Notes under the pieces: model-generated
Database searches by the model: none
What the model saw: only the letters and a program-made list of their open reading frames with translations
What the model was told of the DNA's origin: nothing
Assembly (NCBI RefSeq): GCF_000147715.2
Contig: NC_017934.1
Span: forward strand, 1,178,001-1,242,000
Source: Mesotoga prima MesG1.Ag.4.2
Lineage (GTDB): Bacteria > Thermotogota > Thermotogae > Petrotogales > Kosmotogaceae
Direction of reading: 5' to 3'
Length of the DNA stretch: 64,000 bases
Part shown: one piece after another, positions 30,925-51,608 of the stretch
How the letters are laid out: each line of letters begins with the position of its first letter
Numbering within the stretch: the first letter of the stretch is position 1
Translations under genes and position numbers: made by a program

Positions 30925-31323
30925 CTAATATCTTTTGTGAATAACGTCCACTAACATTGCGGGACTCATCACTCTCGCCAAATTCTCGGGAAAATGTTTT
31001 GCATTCCCGGTAACGATAGGAGCACCGGAGGCCCGCGCAACTTCGACAAAAGGTAAATCAGATAAATCAGGAAGTTTTATAGAGACAGGCTCAGGGCTCC
31101 CAAAAGAACCTTCCCTGAGAAAGAAGTCCAAGAGCGAGCGGATATCATCGTTCGAGAATTGAAACCTGGGTCTACGCAAAACTCTCTCATACTCATCGAT
31201 TATTCTTGCATCATAACAGGGAACGACGAACCTAGAAAGGATTGCATTCAATACAGCAGCAGGCTTACCGTATGGATTGATAAGCGCAGAGACAAGCACA
31301 TTCGTGTCAAGCACTATTCTCAT
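30925..31323 (-). CDS. PIN domain toxin
   Basis: A 132-residue PIN ribonuclease beginning MRIVLDTNVLVSALINPYGK with D6, then ARIIDEYERVLRR (Glu), DLPFVEVARASGAPIVTGNAKHFP (Asp and the strand where TGN replaces the more usual TxD). Same broad family as the PIN protein at 2018, with a different antitoxin type. It overlaps the upstream Phd-like gene by 4 bases. Open frame; probably active, though the last acidic position is Asn. Confidence 0.82.
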   Translation of the reverse strand: MRIVLDTNVLVSALINPYGKPAAVLNAILSRFVVPCYDARIIDEYERVLRRPRFQFSNDDIRSLLDFFLREGSFGSPEPVSIKLPDLSDLPFVEVARASGAPIVTGNAKHFPENLARVMSPAMLVDVIHKRY

Positions 31324-31601
31324 CGGTCTTCTTGTCTGCTCTCCGTTATCTCCCTATCGATTTCCTCTGCAGATAGGCTATTAAGGCCTAGCTTCAAAGA
31401 CTGAAGTCGCATCCGCTCAACTGCGAGCTCTGCCTTTGCCCGCGAAATCGCCTTCATTAAGAAGTCTAGATCCTCGTCAGCTCTTATCATTATTGCTTTG
31501 GGCTTGCCATTAACTGTTACGATAACCTCGGATCCCTCATCAAGCGTTTCCCACACTGCTGAGGGATTGCTTCTCAAATCTCGAGTAGCAATATATTTCA
31601 T
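31320..31601 (-). CDS. Phd/YefM-type antitoxin
   Basis: A protein of 93 residues. The N-terminal domain MKYIATRDLRSNPSAVWETL followed by EGSEVIVTVNGKPKAIMIRA is the Phd/YefM DNA-binding fold, and the helical acidic C-terminal part (AEEIDREITESRQEDR) would wrap the PIN toxin. The start at 31601 follows GAGGTGG at good distance; ATG 31604 is also possible. The upstream region has three TGTAT direct repeats (about 31612-31645), a likely operator. Confidence 0.8.
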   Translation of the reverse strand: MKYIATRDLRSNPSAVWETLDEGSEVIVTVNGKPKAIMIRADEDLDFLMKAISRAKAELAVERMRLQSLKLGLNSLSAEEIDREITESRQEDR

Positions 31602-31679
31602 CATGACCACCTCGTATACAAATATATCATACAATTAATCATACATTATAACATTCGGATGCCACTGGTTCCTTTTCCT

Positions 31680-35219: not shown

Positions 35220-35567
35220 TTATGTTATATCGAGAAGTATTTTTATGACTTCAAGGACTTGTGACATTACTTCATCCGAGACTCTGCCGATTCTCTTTTC
35301 AAGCCTTTCTCTCGATATGGATCTTACGTCTTCGCTCTTGATGTAGCTTGTGAGATCAAGGCCGGTTTCCCTGCCGGATATCTCAACGTGAAGAGGGATG
35401 GATTTGTTTTTTGATGTAATCGGAACTACTATAACAAGTTCCGCCGGCCCATGGTTGAACTGGTCAACAGAGATTACCAGGCATGGTCGAAAACCGGCCT
35501 GTTCTCTACCTCTGACCGGGCTCAGGTTCGCCAGCCAGATTTCGCCTCTCGAAGGTAGATTATTCAT
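35220..35567 (-). CDS. MazF/PemK-type endoribonuclease toxin
   Basis: A product of 115 residues from M6 of the open frame. RGEIWLANLSPVRGREQAGF, RPCLVISVD, VPITSK and LDLTSYIKSEDVRSIS form the MazF/PemK layout; the conserved Arg in RGREQ and the Ser/Thr in PITS are there. It cleaves mRNA in its known relatives. The start is uncertain between 35567 and 35582; 35567 gives an 8-base overlap with the antitoxin. Open frame with all motifs. Confidence 0.87.
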   Translation of the reverse strand: MNNLPSRGEIWLANLSPVRGREQAGFRPCLVISVDQFNHGPAELVIVVPITSKNKSIPLHVEISGRETGLDLTSYIKSEDVRSISRERLEKRIGRVSDEVMSQVLEVIKILLDIT

Positions 35568-35811
35568 CTTTGTCCAATCCATCAGCGATTGCCGTTTCCC
35601 ATTCTTCTCTCTCGTTTTGTTCGTCTTTCCAGAGTTCTTCCGCTTCTTTTAGTCTTGCGAAGGCCCTGTTGGCATCGTTCAGAAGCATTTTCCGCCTGTA
35701 GGCATCCACCGCTTTAGCAAGAATCTCACCTATCGTTTCGCCACTGGCCGAAGCCATGGCCTTAAGCCTGGAATGAGTTTCAGACGAAATTCGCACGATC
35801 TGCGTCTTCAA
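35560..35811 (-). CDS. MazF partner antitoxin, ribbon-helix-helix style
   Basis: A protein of 83 residues. MKTQIVRISSETHSRLKAMA and ASGETIGEILAKAVDAYRRK is a ribbon-helix-helix DNA-binding domain. The C-terminal part FARLKEAEELWKDEQNEREE and TAIADGLDKDE is the acidic toxin-binding tail seen in antitoxins paired with MazF. It is directly upstream of, and overlapping, the toxin. Upstream sequence (about 35815-35865) is AT-rich with TATACTGATAATATAGCATA, which looks like the promoter/operator. Confidence 0.8.
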   Translation of the reverse strand: MKTQIVRISSETHSRLKAMASASGETIGEILAKAVDAYRRKMLLNDANRAFARLKEAEELWKDEQNEREEWETAIADGLDKDE

Positions 35812-37430: not shown

Positions 37431-38290
37431 TCAATGAAAACCCAGTCTATCAGAGGTTTTGAGAAGGTCGCCGATTATCTTCACTGTCTCAACCGCATCG
37501 TTGAACTGAATCCCTTTGGCATAGCTGTTTTCATTTTGATACTTTTCCCAAAGTCTTTTCTGGTACTCAGAGTCAATGAGTTCGTAGACAACGCTTTCGT
37601 AATGAGCTAGTATACTCGATGATCCTCGTCTACGCGCGGTGTTTTCAATTGCTTTCTTTAGTGTGGGGGTGGAGATTTGGTCTTTCTTCAGTCTGAAAAG
37701 AGTGTGGACGTCGTACAAGTCTCTAGGACGAGAACTCAAGACATCCTTCTCAATATGGTCTCGTATTTCTCTGCGAGTATCGTTTCAAGTGTGTATGCTT
37801 TTATGATGATTTTCTCTTTTCCAAAGATTGAGAGATACTGGTAGTCGATTTCTCCGGGAGTTATAACATCTCCAGTTGTTATGTCGATTCTCATTGGAAC
37901 TCTGATTCTGTCGAATCTAGCCTCTAATGAAACACGGAAACTGTTGTATTTGTCTTCTTCGCGGATTGGCACTATTCGCTCCAATTTGAAACTAACCCCG
38001 TCATCAATCGCTGTTTCGATTATTTCGGTCACAACTCTTTTGAGCGAATCTTCATTCATTGCAAGGTTCTTGACTGTGGCATCCATATCGATTGTGGTTC
38101 TCTGCCCAATACCTAGAATAGATGCGATTAGAAGCCCACCTTTCAATATGAAGATCTCTTTGTATGAGGACCTAGCCACTCGCTCAATAAATCTTTCGAA
38201 CATGAACATGTGAAGAATCTCTCCCGCATTCAAGTCTTTCTCCGCGGCGATTTTACGAATCTCGTTTTTCAGCTTTTCCGGGTTTATCAC
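37431..38290 (-). pseudogene. AbiEii-type nucleotidyltransferase toxin, frameshifted
   Basis: Starts at GTG 38290 after GGAGG. It has LKGGLLIASILGIGQRTTID with the D-x-D in TTIDMDATV, then LETILAEKYETILRR, and stops at 37736. The rest continues in another frame as VLSSRPRDLYDVHTLFRLKK to the stop at 37431. Adding one A gives ..TILRRNVLSSRPRDLYD.., exactly the motif III/IV region of the family. The core motifs are intact, but a truncated product of 184 residues lacks motif IV and the C-terminal domain. The upstream AbiEi gene is open and overlaps it by four bases (GTGA). Confidence 0.85.
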
Positions 38291-38883
38291 AGCAGAACCT
38301 CCGTATAAGTATGCAAGAGATCTTCAACTCCCAACACTCGTGAGTATCTAGCTAACTTTGCAATATCTCTTGTACTACCGAAATACGATTTCAAGGCATC
38401 AGTGACGATCTGAATATCAAATCGGTCCTTCTCTTTTAGCAGATCGCAGATGGTCCTTTCGGAATCGTAAGATCTTAAAGTGTTTCCAAAAGGCGATTTA
38501 ACACTGGCCAAACCCAGGTTAAAAAGCGACCGTTTCACGTAATGGAAGACCAGATCACTGCGCTCTTTCGAAAGATGCGTTACGTTTGATCCCTGAGGTA
38601 CAGTAATGTGGTATTTGGATGGTGCCCGGTCTGAGAGACCGAGTAGATAGAGGGATGTTGTATGAGAGAAGACACAGGATTTGCACCTCATCTGGAGTAT
38701 CTTGTACTCATCTATTAATCTTTCTGATAAGACGTACACCCCCCGCGAGACCTTCTCAAGCTGTCCCAACTCAAGAAGCCGTCTTAGCTCTTCCTTTCTA
38801 ATTCCCTCTGCTACGACATCACAGGTTTCAACAAAACCATTGTTTTCGGCAGCGATTTGTTTGATCTTTTCAAACTCATTCAT
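38287..38883 (-). CDS. AbiEi family antitoxin, type IV TA
   Basis: A product of 198 residues. The start at 38883 has GAAGGTGA five bases upstream; the frame continues into the operator, so the earlier ATG at 38922 is rejected. The N-terminal wHTH reads NGFVETCDVVAEGIRKEELR then LGQLEKVSRGVYVL. SHTTSLYLLGLSDRAPSKYH and ITVPQGSN are the characteristic middle section, and YDSERTICDLLKEKDRFD is the conserved ERT-CD segment. It likely represses its own promoter through the perfect inverted repeat just upstream. Antitoxin intact, toxin broken. Confidence 0.87.
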   Translation of the reverse strand: MNEFEKIKQIAAENNGFVETCDVVAEGIRKEELRRLLELGQLEKVSRGVYVLSERLIDEYKILQMRCKSCVFSHTTSLYLLGLSDRAPSKYHITVPQGSNVTHLSKERSDLVFHYVKRSLFNLGLASVKSPFGNTLRSYDSERTICDLLKEKDRFDIQIVTDALKSYFGSTRDIAKLARYSRVLGVEDLLHTYTEVLL

Positions 38884-38896
38884 CGTTTCACCTTCT

Positions 38897-38940
38897 GTAC
38901 TAACGTGCTTTAATAATAACATATTAACGCACGTTAGTAC
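38897..38940. promoter_or_regulatory. Perfect inverted repeat, AbiEi operator
   Basis: GTACTAACGTGC (38897-38908) and GCACGTTAGTAC (38929-38940) are perfect 12-base inverted arms, with centres 32 bp apart, in AT-rich sequence directly upstream of the antitoxin start. The sequence differs from the operator of the other AbiE pair at 19924, so the two systems should not cross-regulate. Confidence 0.78.
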
Positions 38941-44635: not shown

Positions 44636-44902
44636 TCAAAGATTCTTGTATACATTTCTGCGATGTCCGACATGCAGAATAGTAACTGACTTATCTTGCT
44701 AACAAATCTCATAGATAATCCGATAGTCACCAGCTCTTATACGCCATCCCTCTCTTCCGGTCAACTTACTTGAACCTCTTGGACGTGGATTCGATGCTAG
44801 CAACAATATCCTTTGCTTGATTCTGCTATAGTTTGGCTCTCGAAGAGACTGAAGCTCTTTTGCGGCTTTGCTGAGAATAAGAAGTTTGTATTAGTCAGAC
44901 AT
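44636..44902 (-). pseudogene. RelE/ParE-type toxin with two in-frame stops
   Basis: From ATG 44902: MSD, stop TAA (44891-44893), YKLLILSKAAKELQSLREPN, YSRIKQRILLLASNPRPRGS, SKLTGREGWRIRAGDYRIIY, EIC, stop TAG (44699-44701), QDKSVTILHVGHRRNVYKNL, stop at 44636. KLTGREGWRIR-GDYRIIYEI and HRRNVY are the RelE core. It overlaps the antitoxin gene by 8 bases. Antitoxin intact, toxin dead. Confidence 0.85.
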
Positions 44903-45092
44903 CTTTGCGCTTGGATTTTTCTAAAGCTTCTTCAAACGGAAGAATCTCGTCGGCTGACTTCTTAGCTTTGTCGTATGCTCGAATCTCTTCCAATTCTTCC
45001 AACTCATCAAGAATCTTCTTATATGTAGAGATACTAAGAATCACGCTAACAGGTTTTCCATCTTCATTAACAATCATGCGGGGTTCTTTCAT
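44895..45092 (-). CDS. RelB/Phd-like antitoxin
   Basis: A product of 65 residues, MKEPRMIVNEDGKPVSVILS, ISTYKKILDELEELEEIRAY, DKAKKSADEILPFEEALEKS. The short Phd-like N-terminal strand-helix and the acidic helical tail with a PFEEAL motif are typical for antitoxins of RelE toxins. GAGGTGA precedes the ATG. Its toxin gene (44636-44902) carries two stops. Confidence 0.8.
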   Translation of the reverse strand: MKEPRMIVNEDGKPVSVILSISTYKKILDELEELEEIRAYDKAKKSADEILPFEEALEKSKRKDV

Positions 45093-45900: not shown

Positions 45901-45919
45901 GGGACTAAGGCTTGCTTTG

Positions 45920-45951
45920 TTGTCACAAATACTATATACTCTTTGTGACAA
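45920..45951 (+). promoter_or_regulatory. Perfect inverted repeat over the DUF6088 promoter
   Basis: TTGTCACAAA (45920-45929) and TTTGTGACAA (45942-45951), perfect 10-base arms with a 12-base spacer that contains TATATACT, a good -10 box; TTGCTT at 45912 could be the -35 box. Binding would block RNA polymerase directly, so this is a strong candidate autoregulatory operator. It lies 15 bases before the start codon. Confidence 0.75.
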
Positions 45952-45965
45952 GAGGAGTGAACCTT

Positions 45966-46601
45966 ATGAAAGAAATAAGCACCAGGGAGAAAATATCGAA
46001 TTATATAAAGAGGAATCCAAAATCAAGGATTTACTCTATCTCTGACTTTTCAAGATTTGGTACTTATGATAGTGTTCGAAAAGCTCTATCACGGCTGGAA
46101 ATCGAGGGGAGGTTAATTCGTGTTTCGAGGGGCTTCTATAAATCCCAGGAATTCAACATACTTGTAAATGAGGAAGTCGCTTCAGATCCTGATCAGTTTG
46201 CTAGAGCCTATGCAGAGTCCTACGGCTGGAAAATCGCTCCGCACAAGGAAACAGCTTTGAATATGTTGGGTTTGTCAACTCAGGTACAAAATGTCTTTCA
46301 GTACGTAAGTGACGGCCCATATAGAACTGTATCTCTCAATGACGGACGGAAAATAGAGTTCAGACATAGAACTATTCGCGAAATAAGCAAACTTAGTTAT
46401 AAGGAAGCGGCTCTCCTTGAAGCACTTAAGACTCTGGGCAAGGAGCGGATTTCTCCTGATGTCAGGAGTAGGATCCTTCGAAGATTCAGTAAGAAGGAAC
46501 TAGAAGCTTTAAGAAAGCGAGTTCAGAAGAGCAGGAAATGGATTTATGAGGAAATCTGCAGATTGATTGAAAGGAGCGAGAACAGTGTATCGCATCGCTA
46601 A
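45966..46601 (+). CDS. DUF6088-type antitoxin of an AbiE-like pair
   Basis: The product has 211 residues from ATG 45966 (AAGAGGAG eight bases upstream). The N-terminal winged helix is RIYSISDFSRFGTYDSVRKA then LSRLEIEGRLIRVSRGFYKS; the middle KIAPHKETALNMLGLSTQVQ and SDGPYRTVSLNDGRKIEFRH follow the DUF6088 layout. These proteins pair with AbiEii nucleotidyltransferases and are thought to act as antitoxin and repressor. It overlaps the next gene by 17 bases. Confidence 0.8.
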   Translation: MKEISTREKISNYIKRNPKSRIYSISDFSRFGTYDSVRKALSRLEIEGRLIRVSRGFYKSQEFNILVNEEVASDPDQFARAYAESYGWKIAPHKETALNMLGLSTQVQNVFQYVSDGPYRTVSLNDGRKIEFRHRTIREISKLSYKEAALLEALKTLGKERISPDVRSRILRRFSKKELEALRKRVQKSRKWIYEEICRLIERSENSVSHR

Positions 46602-47577
46602 CGAAACTAGCTCAAACCTGAGAGCCATTTTCGGAAATACTGCAACTAGAAGAGGTATCAGTCCGGCAATTATAGAGAAGGACTTTTGGGTATGTTTCCT
46701 GCTTGAGGTTCTCTTTCATCACAGCAAGTATTCAAAGCATTATGCCTTTAAAGGTGGAACGTCTCTTTCAAAGGTATATAAAGCAATAGAACGTTTTTCT
46801 GAAGATATTAATCTGATAGTTGATTGGAGGCTTCTAGGATATTCGTTAACACAACCATGGGAATCAAGATCTAGAACTAAGCAAGAGAGTTTTAATCAGG
46901 AGGCAGCTTTGAGAACTGAACGGTTCGTCGCTACCGAGTTTGTTCCGAGTCTAGAAGAATCATTGAGTTCGTTCATTAAAGATTTCGATTTGCATGTCGA
47001 TCCGGATGATTCTCAGACCGTTCTCTTTAGATATCCACAGATATTCGCTGACCAGAGCCTACTGCAAGAAATTAGATTGGAGATCGGACCCTTGGCGGCG
47101 TGGTCTCCATCTGGCGATAAACCCATTACTCCATATGCCGCCGAGGAGTTCCCTAAAGCTTTTCGCATGCCGAGTACTCTTGTAAGAACAGTAGAAGCAA
47201 AACGTACATTTTGGGAAAAGGCAACTATCCTCCACCGTGAAGCCAACAGGAAGAATGGAAGGTTACCGCTTAGGTATTCCAGGCACTACTATGATCTTCA
47301 TATGTTGTGCAACACCTCAATAAAACGCGAAGCACTTGAGGACATCGAATTGCTTTATAAGGTTGTGGCATTCAAGGACAAGTTCTTTCATTGTGCATGG
47401 GCAAAATACGAAGAAGCACTCCCCGCAACGTTGCGCCTAGTACCGCCCAACAATGTACTAAAGAAACTGGAAGAAGACTTTGAAAAAATGAAGCCAATGA
47501 TATTTGGTTCGGTCCCTTCTTTTGAACAAATACTTGCCACTCTTCGCGAATTTGAGCAAGAAATGAGAACTCGTTAA
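46585..47577 (+). CDS. AbiEii/AbiGii-type nucleotidyltransferase with a D-to-N change
   Basis: The product has 330 residues from GTG 46585, with AAAGGAGCG upstream. Motif I reads FKGGTSLSKVYKAIERFSED then INLIVDW. In relatives this is SEDIDL, with both Asp binding metal; here the second is Asn (codon AAT, one transition from GAT). Later AKRTFWEKATILHREANRKN and RHYYDLHML match motifs III and IV (K, and YYDL). The rest is complete and the frame open. Loss of one metal ligand would be expected to cripple catalysis, though some transferases tolerate it. Confidence 0.8.
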   Translation: MYRIANETSSNLRAIFGNTATRRGISPAIIEKDFWVCFLLEVLFHHSKYSKHYAFKGGTSLSKVYKAIERFSEDINLIVDWRLLGYSLTQPWESRSRTKQESFNQEAALRTERFVATEFVPSLEESLSSFIKDFDLHVDPDDSQTVLFRYPQIFADQSLLQEIRLEIGPLAAWSPSGDKPITPYAAEEFPKAFRMPSTLVRTVEAKRTFWEKATILHREANRKNGRLPLRYSRHYYDLHMLCNTSIKREALEDIELLYKVVAFKDKFFHCAWAKYEEALPATLRLVPPNNVLKKLEEDFEKMKPMIFGSVPSFEQILATLREFEQEMRTR

Positions 47578-48181: not shown

Positions 48182-48212
48182 AATATAATAGTATATGAGT
48201 TACTATAATATT
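48182..48212 (+). promoter_or_regulatory. Inverted repeat at the DUF6036 operon promoter
   Basis: AATATAATAGTA (48182-48193) and TACTATAATATT (48201-48212) are inverted with one mismatch in 12, spacer seven bases. The arms include TATAAT-like boxes. Just upstream of the two-gene operon starting near 48239. Similar in style to 2751-2777. Confidence 0.6.
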
Positions 48213-48238
48213 GTATGTGATACACTAAGGTTATGAAG

Positions 48239-48826
48239 ATGAATATGAGTTTTTCAGATATTGAAGTTGCTTTGAAGGCTTTGAATTCTCAGTTAAAGAG
48301 AATTGGAAAGAAAGTCGGCCTGGTTGTTTGTGGGGGTACCGCATTGAACGCTCTTGGTTTAGTCCAGAGGACAACTGCTGATATAGATGTAGTTGGTTTC
48401 GCAGAGGAAGTCGAGGATCAGATCGTTGTCAGCAAAGCCGAATTCCCGGATTGGCTTCTAGATTCTGCCGGAAAAGTGGCCAGGGATATGGGCCTTCCCA
48501 AAGACTGGATAAACAACGGGCCGACATCATTAGTTGAACTCGGTTTACCTGAAGGATTTTCAGAACGACTAATCAAGGTTCAAATTGGGAGCTCTCTTTC
48601 TGTCTATTATATTTCTCGAATTGATCAGATTTACTTTAAGTTGTACGCTTCAGCTGACCGCGGCGGGTATCACGTAGATGATCTGATGAAGTTAGAACCA
48701 ACGGAGAAAGAGATTGTAGAGGCAGCAAAATGGACAATGACTCATGATGTCTCGCCGGCTTTTAGAGGAATCATGATTGATCTTTTGCGGAGGCTTGGTT
48801 TTGATGATGCATCCAAAGAGCTTTAG
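48239..48826 (+). CDS. DUF6036-type nucleotidyltransferase
   Basis: The product has about 195 residues. VVCGGTALNALGLVQRTTAD then IDVVG gives the GG..(T)xADxD motif of the minimal nucleotidyltransferase fold, both Asp present. The rest (RIDQIYFKLYASADRGGYHV, DDLMKLEP) resembles the K-D-DL region of AbiEii-like proteins annotated DUF6036. The start is 48239 or 48233 (AAGG upstream fits 48239 better). It is first in an operon with a helix-turn-helix protein overlapping by 23 bases. The gene order, enzyme first, is opposite to the AbiE pairs. Possibly an unnamed TA module. Confidence 0.72.
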   Translation: MNMSFSDIEVALKALNSQLKRIGKKVGLVVCGGTALNALGLVQRTTADIDVVGFAEEVEDQIVVSKAEFPDWLLDSAGKVARDMGLPKDWINNGPTSLVELGLPEGFSERLIKVQIGSSLSVYYISRIDQIYFKLYASADRGGYHVDDLMKLEPTEKEIVEAAKWTMTHDVSPAFRGIMIDLLRRLGFDDASKEL

Positions 48827-49661
48827 GAAATTGATTGTAGATAATGCCGTTGGGATGCTGTGGAGCCAGTGGGTAAATCTTGGTGCATGGTCGAGAGCTG
48901 AGCAAAGGGTGAACTCTTTTAGTGATCCGGAGAGCGCTATTGCCTTTTCCAGTTATTTCTGTAAATACGAAAAGCGTCTAGATAAGATCTCTCTGGACTG
49001 GAGCAAAGTGAACCTCCAATATATTAATCATTCTCGCTTGAAAAGACTTCGGAAGACTGTGACCGATCATATTGAACTACCTGATGATTTTTACGAAGTC
49101 CAAGCTGCCACTACTTCCAGCAAGTATATCACTGAGCCTAATGCAAAAGACATGGCGAACTTGCTTGTTAGACTGAGACTGCTCTTTGGATCTACTACCA
49201 GAGCAGACGTGATATTCCATTTACTTACCAAGGGAAGCGCAAATTCGAATCAAATAGCAACCTATCGCTTTCTCAATCAGAAGGCGGTACTTCTGGAACT
49301 AGAGAAGCTGGCTAAGGCGGGTGTTTTGGTAGAGAGAAGATCATCACGGGAGAGACTGTTTTCCGCTCAAAGACAGTTCGCCAAGTTTTTTGAATTCGAA
49401 ATTCAGCCCATTAGTTCTCCATGGTTTCTTCTTGCTTCGCTACTGATGTTAGAAGGATGTCTCACAGATGAGCTCATTGATGATGAATATCTAGTCTTTT
49501 CAACATTCATGGATAATAAAAGAAAACTTTCTGACTATCTTCAGAAGGCTGGCGAATGCAACTTGACTCTCGAAGGATCAACAGCAGACGAGTTTTATGA
49601 GAATGTCACTGAGTACTACACATGTCTTTGTCCGGTCTGTGAAAGTATTCACGCCCGCTAA
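48804..49661 (+). CDS. Winged-helix protein, partner of the DUF6036 enzyme
   Basis: The product has 285 residues (ATG 48804, with GGAGG upstream). The N-terminal half (MMHPKSFRKLIVDNAVGMLW) is helical and not recognised. A winged helix lies at about residues 125-185: TTRADVIFHLLTKGSANSNQ, IATYRFLNQKAVLLELEKLA, KAGVLVERRSSRERLFSA. The C-terminal end has two Cys pairs (CLCPVCES), a possible metal site. By position it should be the regulator or antitoxin of the preceding nucleotidyltransferase. I do not know this family by name. Confidence 0.68.
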   Translation: MMHPKSFRKLIVDNAVGMLWSQWVNLGAWSRAEQRVNSFSDPESAIAFSSYFCKYEKRLDKISLDWSKVNLQYINHSRLKRLRKTVTDHIELPDDFYEVQAATTSSKYITEPNAKDMANLLVRLRLLFGSTTRADVIFHLLTKGSANSNQIATYRFLNQKAVLLELEKLAKAGVLVERRSSRERLFSAQRQFAKFFEFEIQPISSPWFLLASLLMLEGCLTDELIDDEYLVFSTFMDNKRKLSDYLQKAGECNLTLEGSTADEFYENVTEYYTCLCPVCESIHAR

Positions 49662-49727
49662 TATACTCAGATGGAGCAGGTGTCAATTTTTGTGAATATC
49701 ACCGGATGTTATTCTGCCGAAAAATAC

Positions 49728-49868
49728 CAGACGCAAGGCGCCGAAGATCATCGGCGATCAATTAAGAAGTGATGCTGCTCCGCAGGAAGTGAGGCCCGGA
49801 AGACCATCCGGGGAAGTGATGCCGACTTCGTCGGGAAGTGATGCTGGCGCTTTCGCGCCAGGAGGCAA
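49728..49868. repeat. Modular hairpin array
   Basis: GACGCAAGGCGCCGAAGATC then ATCGGCGATCAATTAAGAAG, followed by GAAGTGATG or GAAGTGAGG modules with stems CTGC/GCAG, CCCGGA/TCCGGG, CCGAC/GTCGG and CTGGCGC/GCGCCAG. Same module set and partly same order as 44000-44055 and 43470-43560. Confidence 0.75.
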
Positions 49869-49899
49869 ACAACAAAACAAAATGACTGCATGAAAGTAC

Positions 49900-49948
49900 T
49901 TGAATGGTGAGTTTTCAGATGATATATTATCCTCAGTTCATTTTGAGG
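49900..49948 (+). promoter_or_regulatory. Promoter with inverted repeat, shared with 44092-44135
   Basis: TTGAAT (49900-49905), 17-base spacer, TATATT (49923-49928): a near-consensus vegetative promoter. CCTCA (49931-49935) and TGAGG (49944-49948) form an inverted repeat at the predicted transcript start. The same block, with few changes, lies at 44092-44135 before the chimeric remnant, so promoter and first codons were duplicated together. Confidence 0.65.
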
Positions 49949-49958
49949 AGGATAGATC

Positions 49959-50315
49959 ATGGAGATCGAAAGGCTTAATATCTGGAAGCTGGGTGTTGAG
50001 CTTGCAAAGGATGTTTATGTTCTCACAGAGAAATTCCCTAAGAAAGAGCTCTATAGTCTAACCGACCAAATAAGAAGAGCTGCGGTTTCTGTACCCTCTA
50101 ATATCGCAGAAGGGAAAGGTCGTTCATCTGCAAAGGACTTCATTAACTTCCTGAGTGTTGCCAGAGGGTCACTCTATGAATTAATAACCCAGCTCTATAT
50201 TGCGAGGGAGATTGGATACCTGACTCAAGAAGATTTCTCAACTCTTCAAAAGAGAATCGAGGATCTTTCGCATAAGATAGTTGCTATGACGAAGTACCTT
50301 AGGAATAACAAGTGA
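49959..50315 (+). CDS. Four-helix-bundle protein (23S rRNA intervening-sequence family)
   Basis: A product of 118 residues. LNIWKLGVELAKDVYVLTEK, then QIRRAAVSVPSNIAEGKGRS and FINFLSVARGSLYELITQLY are the conserved segments of the S23/IVS family, related to the Avd accessory protein of diversity-generating retroelements. Members occur in 23S rRNA intervening sequences and as free genes; the role of the free form is unknown. GAGGAGG precedes the ATG. A second member is at 56376. Confidence 0.88.
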   Translation: MEIERLNIWKLGVELAKDVYVLTEKFPKKELYSLTDQIRRAAVSVPSNIAEGKGRSSAKDFINFLSVARGSLYELITQLYIAREIGYLTQEDFSTLQKRIEDLSHKIVAMTKYLRNNK

Positions 50316-50620
50316 GCTCGACTTTGTCGGGAAGTGAGGCTGCTGCGCAGGAGGCAGAAAAGAGACAGTCTGCTGACGCAGGCCATTTCCGCTATGCGGG
50401 AGATGAGATCCCGTGCAGGATCATTACGGGATGACAATGTCAGACAATTATGCGATTCTTTTTGTAGGGGCGAACGGCTGTTCGCGCGTGAGTGGATTTC
50501 AGTGCAGGCTAAAGGGATGACAGAAGAGGCGCTCATCAGAATAAGCTTAAGTGATGACATCCCTTCACGTCATCCTGACAATGCTCCTGGTCAGGATCTG
50601 GGTCACAATAGCTTCATCTA
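50316..50620. repeat. Repeat mosaic, no gene
   Basis: A GAAGTGAGGCTGCTGCGCAGG module, an ACTGGC-type remnant CTGCTGACGCAGGCC, GATCCCGTGCAGGATCATTA hairpin, palindrome variant at 50468-50487 and a CCTGAC..GTCAGG hairpin near 50573. Confidence 0.6.
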
Positions 50621-50680
50621 ATTTCTAAACCTGAAGTTGTCATTGACTTATGCAGATCAAGATGCTGTATCTTTTTGTAT

Positions 50681-50980
50681 CTAACGATAACTTTCTCTTA
50701 TGTCTTCCCAAAGGTCTCGAAGGTCTGGATTTCTTGTCTTAATCAGCCTCAGTTTCCATTCTCTCTTCCAGCTTTTCAGCTGCTTTTCTCTTCTGATAGC
50801 CTCTTTGATTGTTTCAAAGTACTCATAGTAGACAACGACTACACAATTGTACTTATGAGTGAAGCCTTCTATCATCTTGTTCTTGTGCTCAAAGACCCTT
50901 CGAAAGAGATTGTTTGTTACACCAATATAGAACACATTTCTGGAAGGATTTGTCATTATGTAAACAAACCCCGAATTCAT
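50681..50980 (-). CDS. GIY-YIG domain protein
   Basis: A product of 99 residues: FVYIMTNPSRNVFYIGVTNN, LFRRVFEHKNK, then EYFETIKEAIRREKQLKSWK and REWKLRLI. VYI...FYIG and the later R-REKQLK-W are the single-domain GIY-YIG family (UPF0213 style). The catalytic Tyr, Arg and Glu positions are present. Such small proteins are predicted nucleases of unknown target. GAGGTGATG precedes the start. Confidence 0.88.
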   Translation of the reverse strand: MNSGFVYIMTNPSRNVFYIGVTNNLFRRVFEHKNKMIEGFTHKYNCVVVVYYEYFETIKEAIRREKQLKSWKREWKLRLIKTRNPDLRDLWEDIRESYR

Positions 50981-51046
50981 TACATCACCTCATATGAATC
51001 AGAAAATGAGTATTATTATGATAGCATTGTGATTTGCTCTTGATGA

Positions 51047-51520
51047 GTGCCTGTGAAGAGAAGGACTAGATCCCGTGCAGGAACATCACGGGATGACAGA
51101 AGAAACGTCCATCAGGGCAGGCTTTACGGGATGACTCCCTTTCACGTCATCCTGACAATGCTCTTGGTCAGGATCTGGTCTTTTGGGTTTTACGAAGCAT
51201 GCACGCGAAAAAATGGGACAGACGCTAAGGGCCCGTCAGTCCCTATTTTCGCTTACAGCGCTCAGCGGTTTCTAGGTACGAGATCCCGTACAGGAGCACT
51301 ACGGGATGACAGAAGAGGCGCTCATCAGGGCATTCTGACGAAGCTTCTGGTCAAAATCTTTGTCTATATCGCGAAAAATGGGACAGACGTGAGGAGAATC
51401 GTCAGTCCCTATTTTCGCTTAGTTATTCAGATGAGAAATCTATGGGCTTATTCTGAGGACGGAGGACCGCTGACGGAAAACGTTGTCTTCACAGCGGTCA
51501 GCAGAATTACTTGAGCTGGA
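51047..51520. repeat. Repeat mosaic, no gene
   Basis: GATCCCGTGCAGGAACATCA, CCTGACAATGCTCTTGGTCA, GGGACAGACGCTAAGGGCCC then GTCAGTCCC, GATCCCGTACAGGAGCACTA and GGGACAGACGTGAGGAG. Shows several covarying versions of the same hairpins side by side. Confidence 0.65.
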
Positions 51521-51608
51521 TAGTTCATACGATCGACTCGTGTTAGTCATCACGGATTGGTTTGCTTTAGTTGTATACTATGCCGAATAGAATCATGGGG
51601 GTGAAGAT

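Follow-up and report, generated by a model that had tools for sequence, protein, structure and literature searches.

A nucleotidyltransferase and winged-helix gene pair of Mesotoga prima, predicted to be a toxin-first toxin-antitoxin operon

We analyzed a stretch of 64,000 nucleotides from Mesotoga prima MesG1.Ag.4.2 (hereafter, the window), in which a gene encoding a DUF6036-type nucleotidyltransferase (NT) is followed by one encoding a winged-helix protein (WH). Judged by sequence comparison, the NT-WH pair is a mobile unit that has been conserved both in Thermotogota and in a second bacterial phylum, described below. Text searches of the open-access literature for DUF6036 and related systems turned up no account of the pair. 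We predict, from sequence and structural models, that it is a reverse-order (toxin-first) nucleotidyltransferase toxin-antitoxin operon, and we consider this reading probable. With less assurance, we lean towards a more specific proposal, in which the pair represents an undescribed toxin-antitoxin family. The toxin, encoded first, would be DUF6036/MenT-like and modify tRNA, and the antitoxin would be a three-domain winged-helix protein unrelated to AbiEi, COG4861 or MenA. Autoregulation would rest on two WH units bound to tandem palindromes whose 22-bp spacing is invariant, and a WH that has lost its toxin would be kept as a guard against incoming copies.

The two genes and their products

A preliminary description of the window had placed NT first and WH second with a 23-base overlap, in an order opposite to that of AbiE. 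These coordinates were confirmed (Table 1; overlap at 48804-48826), and the order proved to be conserved. Other starts are possible for both genes: ATGs at 48239 or 48245 would give a shorter NT, and an in-frame TTG at 48777 a longer WH. In comparisons with unsaturated synonymous sites, dN/dS was 0.05-0.25 for NT and 0.10-0.43 for WH; both genes are under purifying selection, and both are real.

The surrounding region is, as had been remarked, rich in toxin-antitoxin genes, with two AbiE pairs, a PhdYefM-type antitoxin and PIN toxin, MazF/PemK and a lone RelB/Phd-like antitoxin. The second AbiE pair offers another case of a toxin apparently broken beside an intact antitoxin. The downstream flank consists largely of dispersed repeats, with 94 matches in the window's own genome.

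Table 1. Positions in the window of the NT-WH pair, its operator-like sites and surrounding features
Feature	Position	Strand	Remarks
PhdYefM-type antitoxin and PIN toxin	30925-31634	-	
MazF/PemK toxin	35220-35582	-	
Second AbiE pair	37431-38922	-	AbiEi intact; AbiEii split in two frames (37736-38290, 37431-37739)
Lone RelB/Phd-like antitoxin	44895-45092	-	
Canonical AbiE pair	45912-47577	+	DUF6088/AbiEi then AbiEii, overlapping, antitoxin-first; directly upstream of NT-WH
Inverted repeat	48182-48193/48201-48212		12-nt arms, 92% complementary
Operator-like site 1, ATAGTATATGAGTTACTAT	48188-48206	.	palindromic; holds most of the inverted repeat; conserved in Thermotogota relatives
Operator-like site 2, ATTGTATGTGATACACTAA	48210-48228	.	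4 bp before NT start codon; exactly 22 bp downstream of site 1
NT, DUF6036 nucleotidyltransferase	48233-48826	+	197 aa; predicted toxin
WH, winged-helix protein	48804-49661	+	285 aa from ATG 48804; predicted autorepressor and antitoxin; adjoins every NT copy detected
Downstream flank	49662-51608		largely dispersed repeats
23S rRNA intervening-sequence protein	49959-50315		amid dispersed repeats
GIY-YIG gene	50681-50980	-	amid dispersed repeats

The preliminary description was right to call NT a DUF6036-type enzyme with an intact GG..DID motif. NT matches Pfam PF19502 (DUF6036) at 42.2 bits, above the gathering score of 23.6, and Pfam AbiEii at 21.0 bits, just under the cut-off of 22.5. All of 12 NTs matched DUF6036, and seven additionally, and weakly, matched AbiEii. 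The motif residues of NT are G34, G35, R46, D50, D52, K136, H147 and D150; those conserved among NT members are G34 and G35, R46, D50/D52, K136 and A139, while the motif III arginine, R143, is replaced by Q in most members from the second phylum. Motif IV is HxxDL, not RDxxD, a form that also occurs in the neighboring AbiEii. The motif positions described for AbiEii/DUF1814 toxins (PMC3985639) are found in NT as GG, R46 four residues before D50, DID and K136. One second-phylum NT (L035:1445-2041, minus strand) carries DVN in place of DVD, i.e., the second catalytic Asp is Asn, and is possibly an inactive toxin.

Structure-based searches of both proteins, as the preliminary description had advised, found NT nearest MenT1 and MenT4 and matched WH in its central winged helix-turn-helix (wHTH) only. 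For the NT model (pLDDT 91), MenT1 was the best Foldseek match (probability 1.00, E 3e-3). Alignment with VIA-align gave MenT4 a Z of 8.2 (3.6 A, 167 residues), with ANT(2'')-Ia at 7.9, MenT1 at 7.0, TglT at 6.6 and LnuA at 5.6; because rows within Z 1 count as tied, ANT(2'')-Ia is tied with MenT4. The NT model resembles the MenT/AbiEii-type nucleotidyltransferase fold, i.e., that of DUF1814/MenT, with ANT(2'') tied by Z.

In the WH model (pLDDT 84, pTM 0.83), a winged helix at about residues 117-196 lies between helical N- and C-terminal domains. The fold matches of WH, to MarR/ArsR/SmtB-type regulators and AspA, are limited to the winged helix (residues about 117-201). The N-terminal domain bears a conserved W.QW..LG..DPE. 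When searched within the whole-WH model, the N- and C-terminal parts matched no known fold, a result that does not show their folds to be new. No Pfam family was matched by WH, and searches of PDB, Pfam, NCBIfam, PADLOC and PHROGs returned wHTH or weak partial matches only. The earlier supposition that this partner belongs to no characterized antitoxin family agrees with these results: no antitoxin family of Pfam or NCBIfam was matched, and PADLOC gave only weak matches, each limited to part of WH. One of these, PDC-M05A, was rejected as the family of WH because the match is restricted to the HTH. We also found no relatedness to MenA1, MenA3 or MenA4 by sequence or by the fold of the whole-WH model. 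WH had been described as a 285-residue protein ending in CLCPVC. The length holds, and the motif does lie near the C-terminus (...CLCPVCESIHAR), but it is not conserved, being confined to the window's WH and L002. For this reason we rejected CLCPVC as a zinc motif of the family. No metal-binding C-terminal motif is conserved among WH relatives.

Conservation of the pair and loss of NT

A search for WH in 103 genomes of Thermotogota, the window's phylum, yielded nine relatives of full length (38-100% identity); not counted among them are five further rows, whose matches were weak and HTH-only or partial. NT and WH occur in the same nine genomes, adjacent and always NT first, and at each of the nine loci an NT or NT remnant lies directly upstream of WH and overlaps it. 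A distant relative, L018, has the same gene order, with 36% (NT) and 28% (WH) identity. Through this locus we entered the second phylum, where all strong WH relatives fall in one class; WH is present in 16 of 245 genomes of that class, 13 of which also carry NT. NT is upstream of WH in every locus carrying both, the overlap recurs in nearly all second-phylum pairs, and NT without WH was found in none of the surveyed genomes of either phylum. The preliminary description had called for a survey of whether the pair is conserved as a unit or adjacent by chance. Co-occurrence in nine of nine Thermotogota genomes, and the presence of WH in all 13 NT-bearing genomes of the second-phylum class, establish the former.

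In the second phylum, 30 sampled DUF6036 loci had no WH neighbor, and their match to the NT profile was weak or absent; WH therefore goes with one NT subfamily only. The distance matrices of NT and WH are strongly correlated (r=0.98, 0/5000 permutations), a value to which shared phylogeny contributes. On the WH tree, the pairs of family f1 are joined by the L006 pair, which comes from family f7 (98% SH-aLRT), and this placement suggests horizontal transfer. Two distant WH relatives, at L040:1372-2352 and L097:1282-2247 (both minus strand), are without any NT neighbor; the former comes after an ispG-like gene. A scan of viral contigs, phages and plasmids gave no confirmed NT-WH pair. On viral contig L082 a 43-residue stretch of NT was matched, but profile searches located no NT and no WH on this contig.

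Of 23 loci, six have a broken or deleted NT, and all six keep the operator and WH core. The 23 loci are the nine of Thermotogota and 14 of the second phylum (L018, L034-L039, L089, L091-L095 and L098); L040 and L097, where WH stands without NT, were not counted. The NT of L003 has two frameshifts and a stop, and those of L006 and L007 have one indel each, in draft assemblies where these could be errors. The catalytic region is deleted in L008, all except the C-terminal ~35 residues in L089, and the first ~67 residues in L091. Damage to WH was seen once, at L091:526-2403 (minus strand), where the last ~15 residues are lost and an in-frame fusion joins the gene to the short-chain dehydrogenase gene downstream. 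The resulting 6:1 ratio of NT to WH lesions is a modest bias, with a probability of ~0.02 for at least six of seven falling in NT under a length-proportional null. For the WH beside the deleted NT of L089, dN/dS was 0.09-0.12, although much of this divergence may be older than the loss. That NT is preferentially lost while the WH core and operator stay is as expected if NT is a toxin and WH an autorepressing antitoxin, and the retention of WH would fit a role as guard against incoming copies.

A predicted two-site operator

A near-perfect inverted repeat had been said to cover the promoter. The repeat is real and forms part of the first of two tandem sites; coverage of a promoter was not borne out, in that the repeat has no forward sigma-70 match scoring at least 9/12, only -10-like TATAAT hexamers. 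In aligned upstream regions of the Thermotogota relatives the site consensus is TTAGTATATGATATACTAA, with the second site ending just before NT, and the site centers are exactly 22 bp apart in those loci where both sites could be scored. The second phylum has very different half-sites (GATTATC-like or AGTTGAACT-like), yet it shares the 22-bp spacing. We assessed this spacing as self-match over offsets 14-35, compared with 2000 shuffles. The peak at offset 22 was 77 vs 48.5+/-3.6 in one phylum and 65 vs 38.2+/-3.5 in the other, with 0/2000 shuffles in each case. The initial loci gave the 22-bp rule, and loci discovered later served to check it: L092-L095 scored 11, 10, 9 and 11 of 12 at offset 22, and L089 and L091 also peak there, while in the distant pair L098 the spacing is not clearly shown (7/12). 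In a pattern search of the window's genome, the two sites were the best and joint-second-best matches. Given this conservation, we regard the tandem palindromes as operator-like, and predict that they form the operator.

Stray copies of these elements also occur. A relic tandem operator at L130:2360-2398 (C1:136859-136897 of the window's own genome) keeps the 22-bp distance between its sites, but neither an NT or WH gene nor an evident gene start lies behind it. At L005:3623-3663, ~1.3 kb downstream of the intact pair of the same genome, a second operator pair precedes a remnant of ~30 residues from the NT C-terminus. What had been taken for a second WH fragment in G019 (L030) is the end of the intact copy; an operator pair and an NT scrap are the only duplicated parts.

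Proposed mechanism, alternatives and known systems

In our proposal, NT belongs to the AbiEii/MenT superfamily as a minimal nucleotidyltransferase, which would add nucleotides to an RNA target and block growth. By analogy with MenT toxins, of which MenT1 and MenT4 act on tRNA 3' ends (PMC10435456), these ends would be the most likely target. WH would neutralize NT and repress its own operon, its winged helix binding the two palindromes directly upstream of NT. The 22 bp between their centers correspond to about two helical turns, so that two WH units, probably as dimers, would share one face of the DNA. Through the frame overlap, translation of WH would be coupled to that of NT. If the level of WH drops, NT would modify its RNA target and growth would stop. 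We infer toxicity, neutralization, DNA binding with repression, and the tRNA target; NT and WH would either contact each other directly (type II-like) or not at all (type IV-like).

It might instead be that WH is merely an autorepressor or sensor, and that NT is a non-toxic enzyme, e.g., an antibiotic- or metabolite-modifying nucleotidyltransferase, induced by a ligand on WH. The structural matches of NT do include ANT(2'')-Ia (Z 7.9) and LnuA (Z 5.6), and the wHTH of WH has its closest matches among MarR/ArsR-type regulators, for which control by ligands is common. However, the WH core and operator persist in L003, L008, L089 and L091, loci whose NT has lost its catalytic core, and this is hard to explain if WH solely controls NT. 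Moreover, NT bears the R+4D spacing, K136 and HxxDL of AbiEii-type enzymes (compared with PMC3985639), and WH relatives share no metal-binding motif at the C-terminus. We therefore consider this explanation unlikely.

A smaller probability still attaches to the pair being an AbiE (COG5340/COG2253) or COG4861/COG4849 system that has diverged and had its gene order inverted, as might be suspected from the weak AbiEii match of seven of 12 NT members and from the two promoter repeats that AbiEi systems also have (PMC7319586). The preliminary description had held that WH does not look like AbiEi, and we rejected WH as a diverged AbiEi on profile, domain order and gene order. No AbiEi Pfam family matched WH even at E 10, or ten WH relatives at E 1; the winged helix is central, not N-terminal; and the gene order is reversed. 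Profile comparison of WH with the neighboring AbiEi gave 3% probability, which is weak evidence because the other side was a single sequence. Finally, NT and WH might be chance neighbors or a functionless decaying remnant, given that NT is often broken and that relic operators exist, but both genes are under purifying selection and their pairing is conserved in two phyla, which makes this scarcely credible.

If the toxin-antitoxin reading is true, the nucleotidyltransferase toxins (AbiE, MenAT), known for diverse antitoxins and debated modes of neutralization, would gain a new antitoxin family and a reversed gene order, and one DUF6036 subfamily would be explained. The 22-bp tandem palindromes would be a rare regulatory signature, usable to recognize the family and to test autoregulation. 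Repeated NT loss with WH kept would supply natural examples for antitoxins as anti-addiction guards.

Several known systems share part of this arrangement. MarR/ArsR/SmtB-type regulators and AspA are like WH in the wHTH part only. The PADLOC candidate PDC-M05 combines a nucleotidyltransferase, PDC-M05A, with a HEPN partner (PMC12988326); WH matches PDC-M05A weakly over the HTH stretch, but WH is not a nucleotidyltransferase, and no HEPN gene is adjacent to the pair. NT is a member of the function-unassigned DUF6036 (PF19502) nucleotidyltransferases, from which the 30 sampled second-phylum loci, lacking WH, differ. In the COG4861-COG4849 system the regulator is upstream of the nucleotidyltransferase (PMC3985639), whereas WH is downstream of NT; the pair is set apart from this system by gene order.

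The pair is like type IV AbiE in combining a nucleotidyltransferase with a wHTH regulator and in having two operator or operator-like sites before the operon. AbiE toxins act bacteriostatically and make no contact with their antitoxins. However, AbiE is antitoxin-first, whereas here the predicted toxin comes first, and AbiEi has an N-terminal wHTH and a C-terminal antitoxin domain, whereas the wHTH of WH is central between two helical domains. The AbiE operator consists of two 23-bp inverted repeats 3 bp apart (PMC7319586), unlike the tandem palindromes here, with their 22-bp center-to-center distance. Compared with motifs I-IV of AbiE nucleotidyltransferases (hGG..R...DhD, K..A..R, +DxxD), NT members conserve G34, G35, R46, D50/D52, K136 and A139, R143 is not general in the second phylum, and motif IV is HxxDL. 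MenAT of Mycobacterium tuberculosis is similar in that the predicted NT fold is nearest MenT1/MenT4, NT is of MenT1 size, and the partner is a separate protein. MenA1, however, has 68 aa and no DNA-binding domain, its gene being mostly upstream of menT (15/21; PMC10435456), whereas the partner here is a 285-aa wHTH protein encoded downstream of NT.
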